Below, one piece after another: positions 6,279 through 34,569 of a stretch of 34,569 nt of DNA; the stretch's first letter is position 1; each line of letters starts with the position of its first letter. Source of the DNA: Lachnospiraceae bacterium (GTDB lineage: Bacteria > Bacillota > Clostridia > Lachnospirales > Lachnospiraceae); NCBI GenBank assembly GCA_910574195.1, contig CAJTBF010000024.1, forward strand, positions 1 through 34,569, in the 5' to 3' direction. The notes under the pieces were generated by a model, which worked only from the letters and a program-made list of their open reading frames with translations, was not told where the DNA came from and searched no databases. A program made the position numbers and the translations under genes.

Positions 6279-6482
6279 TTTTTTACAATAAAATAACTGA
6301 TACTATTTCATATAATAGCGTACCTTATTAAATCCAATGTTTCTATTTATATAAAACAACTTAATCACAAGATGTATGGCTAATTATTGTCTGCATTTAT
6401 ATCTCATAGTTTATTTCTATGCAAACAAAAAATTAGTACAAAACGGACTATTCTTATGGAGCATATTTAGTATAACCTTATC

Positions 6483-6673
6483 GGACAAAAGCAGTCGTCC
6501 GCCAGGGCAGAAATACTTGTCCACATCACCCCACTTTCGCTTCTCAAAAAACGTAACAGACGCTAAACTCGAAAAAAACTCGTTAAGCGCTGACGTTTTT
6601 TGAGAGGTTCTGATACGCAAGTATTTCTGCCCTGACTATTTTTTTTCAAAAATGTAAGATGTGTTCCGGTAAG
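6483..6673 (+). repeat. Long-hairpin repeat element, copy A
   Basis: This 191-bp sequence recurs at 26010-26201 in the same orientation. It can fold into nested stems. The outer stem pairs 6503-6519 with 6618-6634 (17 of 17 pairs). A middle stem pairs 6540-6554 with 6593-6607 (15 pairs, one wobble). An inner hairpin is formed by CAG-CGCT-AA and TTAAGCG-CTG. A conserved single-stranded stretch, TCCACATCACCCC, follows the outer 5' strand. Open frames of 67-75 codons cross it on both strands but seem to be by-products of the palindrome. No transposase or terminal target duplication is visible. It could be a structured RNA or a non-autonomous hairpin element. Confidence 0.75.
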
Positions 6674-6700
6674 TTATACTAATTGGACTACTAATCTCCA

Positions 6701-8940: not shown

Positions 8941-9110
8941 TTGACTACTAACACCTAATCAGATATACCCACTCGGGCATCCCGTAATTCATGCCCTTCA
9001 GGCAGATGGACAGCTACCGCTGTCCGATAAGGTATACCTTATCAGATACGAAGTGTCCGCTCGTGCAAAGCACATCAGATACGGAATGCCCTGTGGTATA
9101 CTTATAATAT
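8941..9110. repeat. TATACCC palindromic repeat, long copy 2
   Basis: ATATACCCACTCGGGCATCC and the following TAATTCATGCCC closely match the copy at 26202-26278. The preceding TTGACTACTAA matches the sequence before copy 1 (TTGGACTACTAA near 6683). It contains the hairpin GGACAGC-TACC-GCTGTCC (9008-9025) and the palindrome ATAAGGTATACCTTAT. It fills the gap between the hydrolase terminator and the end of rsmG, where no gene is seen. Confidence 0.65.
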
Positions 9111-25943: not shown

Positions 25944-26009
25944 ATTACATTAGCAGTTTGTTTGCTTGAAGGGCATTCAATGTGGGATGATTTTGGAGTA
26001 TGCTTTGTT

Positions 26010-26201
26010 GGACAAAAAGCAATCGTCCGCCAGGACAGAAATATTTGTCCACATCACCCCGCTTTTGCTTCGCAAAAAATGTAACAGACGCTAAACTCGG
26101 AAAAACCTCGTTAAGCGCTGACGTTTTTTGAGAGGTTCTTTAGGACAAATATTTCTGCCCTGGTTATTTTTTCGCAAAAATGTAAGATATGTTTCGGTAA
26201 A
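26010..26201 (+). repeat. Long-hairpin repeat element, copy B
   Basis: Second copy of the element at 6483-6673, clearly alignable over its whole length. The outer stem pairs 26031-26050 with 26143-26162 (20 positions, one mismatch). The middle stem pairs 26068-26082 with 26121-26135 (one mismatch, two wobbles). The base pair C-G at 6516/6621 of copy A is T-A at 26044/26149 here, a compensatory change. The element lies between gyrA and the fumarase genes, with no open frame of its own. Confidence 0.75.
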
Positions 26202-26278
26202 TTATATCCATTCGGGCATCCCATAATTCATGTCCCATTAGGACGATCGTACAGCTAACACTGTTCAACAAAACATAC
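26202..26278. repeat. TATACCC-type repeat, copy 4
   Basis: The sequence ATATCCATTCGGGCATCCCA then TAATTCATG matches copy 2 near 8963-8993 with few differences. The following ACAGCTAACACTGTTC corresponds to the hairpin at 9008-9025 in a degraded form. It directly follows copy B of the long-hairpin element, just as copy 1 follows copy A at a short distance. Confidence 0.6.
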
Positions 26279-29451: not shown

Positions 29452-30991
<1,540 letters not shown>

Positions 30992-31079
30992 AAGAAAGAA
31001 GTAGAGGGAAATGTTGTCTATTGTTTAGTTATCGGAGGAGCCTAGGGGAAGGAACTGGCGAAAGAGATAACGAAAGATT

Positions 31080-31194
31080 TTGGCGGCGATGCGTCGAGGG
31101 GAAACACGCGTACCCATCCCGAACACGAGAGTGAAGACCTGGACGGCCGATGGTACTGCATTGGTGACGATGTGGGAGAGCAGGTGGCCGCCAA
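31080..31194 (+). rRNA. 5S ribosomal RNA, located between 16S and 23S
   Basis: The terminal helix TGGCGGC (31081-31087) pairs with GCCGCCA (31187-31193). Internal hallmarks are TACCCATCCCGAACACGAGAG and GGCCGATGGTACTGCATTGG, then GTGGGAGAGCAGGTGGCCGCC. Length is about 115 nt. It lies only about 95 bp after 16S and 450 bp before 23S, not in the usual place after 23S. Exact ends are uncertain by one or two bases. Confidence 0.95.
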
Positions 31195-31640
31195 ATAAAA
31201 AAAGAATTGCATCAAGGAAGAAAGCGCGAGGAAGTACCGGCGCGAAAGGGATTCAAATAGATACAGGCAGGGACAGGCAACCACCTGTCAGCGCCAACCC
31301 AGTCAGCAGGGCAGTGCTGTTGGAATAGCTGGTTTTTCCAGTGATCAGAGAGTTGAAAAGGAGGAAAGCGTGGGAGTTTTCCGGAAAGTTTCAAAGTTCT
31401 GATGACTGTAAAAAAGCAGTCAGACATGCACCTTGAAAACCGCATACAGAGAAATATCTAATAAGAGAGATGAAGGAAACTTCATCAAGACATCCGAGGT
31501 ATGTAAGAGACATACAAAAGTCCAGGGGAAGGACGAGAAAGAGTCCCCGCTTACTGTGAAGACAGTAAGGCCTGTCACCAAAGCACGTCACGCTAGACGT
31601 GAGAAGCCGGAATCCACCACCCGTGTGGACGAGGCGATTT
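31195..31640 (+). other. 5S-23S spacer, no tRNA gene, string of small hairpins
   Basis: No tRNA is found. Several short stem-loops follow one another, e.g. GATGAAGGAAACTTCATC, GTATGTAAGAGACATAC, CTTACTGTGAAGACAGTAAG and GGGGAAGG...AGTCCCC. The text ACCTTGAAAACCGCATACAG near 31430 resembles the boxA-type leader seen before rRNA genes and may belong to the 23S processing region. Confidence 0.6.
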
Positions 31641-34536
<2,896 letters not shown>

Positions 34537-34569
34537 AGAGAAGGGGACAGGAGAGAGACGGATAAAAGT

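Follow-up and report, generated by a model that had tools for sequence, protein, structure and literature searches.

The window analyzed here, a 34,569-nucleotide stretch of Lachnospiraceae DNA, carries two copies (A and B) of a long hairpin that is a dispersed, orientation-neutral mobile element with a covarying fold. The tip of this hairpin is common to the mobile copies and to compact elements, which lie mostly in the sense direction between co-oriented genes. On balance, we favor the reading that A and B are MITE-like mobile hairpins carrying a putative, family-specific RNA punctuation tip, served by a putative transposase acting in trans and a putative reader. An earlier note on this DNA had offered an undescribed structured RNA or a non-autonomous hairpin element as alternatives, and both are supported at once, by dispersed MITE-like copies on the one hand and by a tip motif that also occurs alone on the other.

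Structure and copy number of the long hairpin

The positions and common orientation that had been reported for copies A and B were correct when checked against the sequence, and the compensatory change between them (C6516-G6621 in A, T26044-A26149 in B) was verified base by base. The two copies do lie on the same strand as each other, but because our models of the structured core (R1) and of the tip (R2) both match the minus strand of the window, the plus strand that had been read is the antisense of the better-supported one. The strand that folds best is the minus strand, and the parts of both copies are as follows.

6468..6681, minus strand: copy A, whole repeat with outer inverted ends (ends by eye, approximate)
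6468-6485 and 6665-6680: outer ends of copy A, AGTATAACCTTATCGGAC against TCCGGTAAGTTATACT (by eye, approximate)
6490..6644, minus strand: copy A, structured core (model R1, 148.9 bits)
6615..6636, minus strand: copy A, 5' arm of the 22-bp stem P1 in the sense reading (columns 9-30 of alignment A5)
6501..6522, minus strand: copy A, 3' arm of stem P1 in the sense reading (columns 123-144 of alignment A5)
6558..6592, minus strand: copy A, tip motif hairpin (model R2, 41.1 bits)
6533..6540, minus strand: copy A, small GNRA hairpin of the junction (GCGAAAGU)
25997..26208, minus strand: copy B, whole repeat with outer ends (by eye, approximate)
26018..26172, minus strand: copy B, structured core (model R1, 167.9 bits)
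26143..26164, minus strand: copy B, 5' arm of stem P1 (alignment columns 9-30)
26029..26050, minus strand: copy B, 3' arm of stem P1 (alignment columns 123-144)
26086..26120, minus strand: copy B, tip motif hairpin (model R2, 49.2 bits)
26061..26068, minus strand: copy B, small junction hairpin with loop AAAA instead of GNRA

Copy A sits upstream of parA and is oriented like it, copy B is antisense to both adjoining genes, gyrA and fumarase, and no reading frame of at least 80 amino acids overlaps either copy. The description of the pair as lying near the origin holds for A and B themselves (ParA/ParB and gyrase A/B were recognized by Pfam), but copies of the family are found on many contigs. 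Elsewhere in the window, Rfam placed a 5S rRNA match (31079-31196) between the 16S (29452-30985) and 23S (31641-34538) rRNA genes, on the same strand; the usual place of 5S rRNA is behind the 23S gene.

The element is about 205 to 215 bp in size and is predicted to fold nearly end to end into one long hairpin with a conserved three-way junction and a 35-nt tip on top. Read along the minus strand of the window, the order of parts is the 22-bp stem P1, a short P2, the junction with its small GNRA hairpin, P3, and the tip, whose marks are tandem G.A pairs and a U.U mismatch. The arms are free to vary in sequence provided that they pair, while both the junction and the tip are conserved.

Its author had made the proposal in the earlier note depend on the existence of further copies and on covariation among them, and both were found. 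With copy A as the query, we obtained 31 matches in the 3.96-Mb genome from which the window comes, 24 of which cover most of the element and, A itself aside, are 86 to 95% identical to it. Model R1, which was built from 15 copies with B included and A excluded, also gave 31 matches in this genome, namely, 24 clear copies scoring at least 134 bits, a diverged copy scoring 76.5 bits, and 6 matches to the opposite strand of copies; more copies occur in relatives.

Covariation was strong in alignments at the level of the genome, the genus, and a wider set of relatives. In the own-genome alignment (A5, 24 of the 25 copies), standard pairs made up 96.6% of the pair cells, against a mean of 94.1% in shuffled alignments and 38.2 to 48.6% when the structure was slid along the alignment. 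Both partners had changed in 15 of 51 pairs and in 30 cells (shuffled means, 4.4 and 7.7), values that none of 500 shuffles reached and that slid structures, with at most 4 pairs and 6 cells, did not approach. When 7 own-genome copies were combined with 8 from the same genus, double changes rose to 24 of 51 pairs and 105 cells; the shuffles (means, 14.9 and 30.6) ignore relatedness, whereas slid structures keep it and gave no more than 30 doubly changed cells in this set.

The same fold was apparent in 123 relatives aligned to R1, an alignment that was fitted to the model, so that its paired fraction is biased toward the structure. Most P1 positions in this set show all four Watson-Crick pair types, 2,466 of 2,623 P1 cells are Watson-Crick, and on the sense strand G.U outnumbers A.C by 83 cells to 28. 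The small junction loop is GNRA in 120 of the 123 (GAGA in 43, GAAA in 37, GGAA in 13, GCAA in 11, GGGA in 10, and GCGA in 6), the remaining three being AAAA (the case of copy B), AAGA, and one with an unread base, and its third base is a purine in every readable loop.

Distribution and mobility

The genome under study belongs to the Lachnospiraceae genus that includes Schaedlerella arabinosiphila, and R1 matched 6 of the 12 genomes of that genus, our own included. Across the family, a major one in the gut, R1 matched 86 of 299 genus representatives, with the same fold and other arm sequences, and the tip model R2 matched 118 of the 299 at E values up to 0.01. In an order-wide sample of 256 genomes, whose share lying outside the family is not given, all 20 genomes with R1 matches were labeled as Lachnospiraceae, and in a class-wide sample R2 matched 10 of 291 genomes, 9 of them in Lachnospiraceae and one outside it at an E value of 0.004. 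Because only the best candidates per genome were scored in these large searches (10 for R1 in the 299 genera, 11 in the order-wide sample, and 23 for R2, with stricter filters), the copy numbers and the positives are lower bounds. A sequence search returned at least 120 matching stretches, and most of the titles among the matches listed read Lachnospiraceae, Butyrivibrio, Clostridium, Clostridiaceae, or Clostridiales; three contigs of one metagenome-assembled genome in that list are titled Bacteroides sp., which we suspect to be a mislabel. In the samples searched, the hairpin family turned up almost exclusively in Lachnospiraceae. Viral contigs gave no exact match to one tip pattern and hence, at that stringency, no sign of a phage source.

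The long copies take no consistent orientation with respect to genes. Among 81 copies in 8-kb loci (of 104 matches, those at locus ends and partial, weak, or opposite-strand duplicate matches having been left out), both neighbors were co-directed with the element in 28 and both were opposite in 28, and the remainder lay between convergent genes (12) or divergent genes (8) or had a neighbor missing on one side (5). Here and for the compact elements below, gene order and neighbors come from a simple reading-frame prediction. It follows from this neutrality that about half of the mobile copies, copy B included, place an antisense version of the motif in neighboring transcripts. It also leaves strand-biased transposition of single-stranded DNA, which we had considered, unsupported. 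The idea that the arms are copied from the insertion target was rejected because copies within one genome have a common arm sequence.

The ends of the element are clearest in one relative, genome G223, in which AGGYRATTGCGAAACT occurs 39 times on each strand when up to one mismatch is allowed (reversed control, 0). Examination of 30 loci drawn from these 78 end matches yielded 16 copies with paired ends, spaced 204 to 208 bp apart in eleven, 261 to 264 bp in four, and 138 bp in one; longer stretches between ends are also present (L280 and L281). Target duplications of 7 to 13 bp (score of at least 7) flank 13 of the 16, against 0 of 800 cross-paired controls. In a wider set made up of the 119 of 123 aligned elements that had sufficient flank, a symmetric direct repeat with a score of at least 8 was found in 21 copies, against 2.6 expected, and single longer direct repeats of 21 and 32 nt were seen in other lineages. 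The 24 copies of our own genome gave no excess of target duplications (1 observed, 1.8 expected), and their inverted ends, recognized by eye, are degenerate.

By eye, the ends differ between lineages, being GTATACCTTATYGGAC-like in our own genome, AGGTAATTGCGAAACT in G223, and GTTACTATTCACAG in record JAMPHY. Like MITEs, the elements are short, present in many copies, devoid (as judged from A and B) of a reading frame of 80 or more amino acids, and bounded by terminal inverted repeats, with target-site duplication in G223; since their ends vary while the core persists, they are in this respect the reverse of an ordinary MITE. Clustering of the neighboring proteins brought out no recurrent gene beside the copies. 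The largest clusters, of 18 and 14 loci with representatives of 583 and 1,243 amino acids, presumably represent two large families, transporters and sensor kinases. When the mobile copies were inspected by eye, no conserved promoter was apparent beside them.

Several other repeats and arrangements were recorded in the course of this work. Our own genome also contains 46 occurrences of a different short palindrome, GTATACCTWATTGGAC, counted with no more than one mismatch (25 forward and 21 reverse; reversed control, 0) and often in copies 32 bp apart (for example, at 63442-63555 of contig C1 and 64004-64084 of contig C12 of this genome, G000); in the window it lies near 9022-9037. This repeat resembles the outer ends of the own-genome hairpins. 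Some mobile hairpins are paired in opposite orientation about 100 to 550 bp apart (L058, L062, L064, L069, and L076). Copies lie close to fumarase genes in three genomes (L010, L120, and L173) with differing positions and orientations and are probably independent insertions.

The tip as a separate module

Short R1 matches led to tips that lack the usual long arms and the junction. The tip is a 35-nt hairpin of the form CUU RRC GA G ... C GA GYY U AG, and a pattern for it was present in 7 of 10 chosen genomes, with a reversed control of 0 in all 10. Among 128 distinct 35-mers, the U.U mismatch is found in all 128, the two G.A positions are kept in 126 and 128, and the adjacent pairs covary: cells changed on both sides number 60, whereas shuffling gave a mean of 18.7 and slid structures no more than 12. 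Because the search expression fixed part of the sequence and allowed one mismatch per half, this covariation is stronger evidence for the tip than the U.U and G.A counts.

On the long elements, the tip is exchanged and multiplied in several ways, as judged by eye from predicted folds. A second hairpin of the tip type replaces the GNRA hairpin in L161, L184, and L174, a tip is nested within a tip in L238 and L250, and a plain hairpin serves as the tip in L232, L234, and L240; some of the G223 copies lack the tandem G.A tip. Expanded variants with extra hairpins built into the junction beside the tip were observed at loci L271 to L277 of genome G215.

The lone tips, unlike the mobile copies, are mostly in the sense direction. 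Five genomes (G294, G367, G387, G242, and our own) provided 44 clusters at 40 loci; both neighbors were co-directed with the tip in 24 of these clusters and both were opposite in 4, the others being mixed (4 and 3) or lacking a neighbor (9). Three of the 44, on the plus strand at L376, L378, and L385, are chance matches in rRNA to a loose search expression, none of which was counted as co-directed on both sides; one cluster that was so counted (L382) is doubtful, and 23 remain. The bias of 24 to 4 does not represent 28 independent cases, because three of the genomes (G367, G387, and G242) are congeneric and several of the clusters share a gene context. Nineteen of the 44 clusters begin 4 to 10 nt past the end of the upstream frame on the same strand, and in several cases the element itself contains the stop codon (AAG UAA UCACUU).

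Pfam matches to the flanking proteins, obtained for all but 4 of 20 at the cutoff used, place lone tips between genes of central operons. The flanking pairs include glyceraldehyde-3-phosphate dehydrogenase and phosphoglycerate kinase (L372), phosphoglycerate kinase and triosephosphate isomerase (L303 and L397, in G242 and our own genome), ATP synthase gamma and alpha-beta family subunits (L374), importer permease and solute-binding protein (L379), and a KduI-type isomerase and a short-chain dehydrogenase (L373). The position between pgk and tpi is orthologous in several genera. When one R2-bearing genome from each of 30 genera was considered, an R2 match lay directly behind pgk in 5 (L399, L403, L404, L425, and L428), in each case running in the direction of pgk, and 25 had no R2 match there; L400 has two matches on the other side of pgk. 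In our own genome, R2 matched 27 places. Twenty of them are mobile copies and two fall within the pgk/tpi spacer; another two, at 59.9 to 60.0 kb of contig C2, are antisense to their neighbors, and the last three form a 103-bp tandem array at 155.5 to 155.8 kb of contig C5, in a spacer read by eye as rpsH/rplF.

Further lone tips, also assigned by eye, follow a terminator T-run or a T-box-like leader, follow the 3' end of 23S rRNA, or stand between tRNAs, and those of G294 come directly after TATAAT. At L359 to L365 of G294, tandem arrays of tips lie, as judged by eye, directly behind TATAAT boxes, some with -35-like hexamers upstream; it is possible that these arrays are leaders that begin with the motif.

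Interpretation and relation to known systems

These observations could be brought together as follows. A putative transposase would move the element in trans, and the tip would be an RNA punctuation signal bound by a putative family-specific RNA-binding protein or ribonuclease, which would set the processing or stability of neighboring RNA units (gene and gene, leader and gene, or rRNA and tRNA). That one internal motif recurs across operons points to a putative reader protein rather than to folding energy alone. Mobile hairpins may carry the signal because it makes intergenic insertions less harmful, or the compact elements may be trimmed descendants of mobile ones.

The explanation that competes most directly with an RNA signal is a foldback acting at the level of DNA, in which a recombinase recognizes single-stranded or cruciform DNA, template switching keeps the arms paired, and RNA is irrelevant. 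DNA, too, forms stable GNNA loops and tandem G.A pairs, P1 is nearly all Watson-Crick, even the outer ends match within one copy (L122), and the mobile copies are neutral in orientation, all of which such a foldback would accommodate. We nevertheless consider it unlikely, given the preference for G.U over A.C on one strand, the purine at the third base of every readable junction loop, and the sense bias of the compact tips, a strand bias that could still reflect single-stranded DNA of one strand. Somewhat more doubtful is the proposal that the compact elements are partial terminators or attenuators, that termination sets operon stoichiometry, and that the mobile hairpin is functionally unrelated. 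In genus g232 a second hairpin and then UUCCUU-like tracts often follow the tip (by eye), and in cellulolytic Clostridia the ratio among ABC importer genes is set by terminators within the operon (PMC9045158). However, the tract is U-poor, the tip keeps a U.U mismatch and tandem G.A pairs that termination does not need, and tips also stand, as judged by eye, behind existing terminator T-runs, behind the 3' end of 23S rRNA, and between tRNAs.

The two other alternatives concern the origin of the long element. The three-way junction and the many conserved unpaired bases would suit an independent noncoding RNA gene or a trans-acting ribozyme, a reading made quite improbable by the dispersed copies with target duplications, by the lack of any promoter noticed beside them, and by the recurrence of the tip alone without the junction. 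We give the least credence to a SINE-like element inserted by a reverse transcriptase: it would account for the apparent duplications, of 7 to 13 bp in G223 and, in one case each, of 21 and 32 bp in further lineages, but inverted ends like those of DNA transposons bound the G223 copies, no neighboring gene recurs, and lineages with different ends may use different transposases.

Going beyond the mobile hairpin with a punctuation tip that we favor for A and B, we raise more tentatively the possibility of an RNA punctuation code of the Lachnospiraceae's own, a U.U/G.A hairpin with a putative dedicated reader that was captured and spread by mobile hairpins with differing ends. Were this so, boundaries would be marked in glycolytic, ATP synthase, transporter, ribosomal-protein, and rRNA/tRNA operons, and transposition could create new operon processing sites. 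The presence of the motif both in central operons and on mobile elements makes two questions testable, namely, which protein reads the tip and whether operons gain new RNA processing sites through transposons, and a searchable model of the motif is now available.

On the window's element, no Rfam family scored as high as its gathering threshold, and relaxed scans of 10, 11, and 10 loci produced no credible match on an element; a microRNA model in L061 came to an E value of 0.0067 (33 bits against a gathering score of 87). About 1 kb from one element copy, at L046:253-442, the Rfam Clostridiales-1 RNA scored 46.2 bits against a gathering score of 48. In the main texts of the open-access papers searched, we found no description of the motif, and term look-ups in PMC11109978, PMC8040213, and PMC8632094 gave none either. 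The category, MITE-like repeats in untranslated regions and operon spacers together with the mobile/repeat candidates of PMC11109978, is known, and this specific family is without an Rfam 15 match in the loci scanned.

Among known intergenic palindromic repeats, REP/BIME, ERIC, and Correia/NEMIS elements have proposed roles in mRNA processing or stability. They belong to other lineages, have other sequences, and are not known to share a tandem G.A tip. REP elements are also mentioned in PMC3733652. The bcr1 to bcr3 repeats of the Bacillus cereus group are MITE-like, intergenic, and often located in untranslated regions or operon spacers, and bcr3 correlates with the rate of mRNA decay (PMC3446304). 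They occur in another lineage, and it is the hairpin family described here that has a conserved center, ends that vary by lineage, and a tip that also stands alone in operons.

Operon stem-loops behind genes have been associated with a higher level of the upstream transcript, with protection tied to folding energy (PMC4423207). The compact motifs take the same kind of position, and the arrangement that defines such SRPS stem-loops, a stem-loop behind a gene within an operon, was found for the compact copies only. They differ in that one U.U/G.A motif recurs across operons and genera and is also present on mobile copies; processing is putative here. In cellulolytic Clostridia, ABC importer operons likewise have stem-loops between their genes, which act as internal terminators (PMC9045158), but these lie behind the binding-protein gene, whereas the tip at L379 lies between the permease and binding-protein genes and tips are found in glycolytic and ATP synthase operons as well. 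Finally, the mobile/repeat sequence candidates (MRSC), such as MRSC-65-2, resemble the long hairpin in having many copies per genome, a covarying stem, and an inconsistent orientation to genes (PMC11109978). MRSC-65-2, which comes from diverse phyla, consists of one long stem with a UYCCGG repeat, whereas the hairpin described here combines a three-way junction with a distinct tip and, in the samples searched, was found almost only in Lachnospiraceae.
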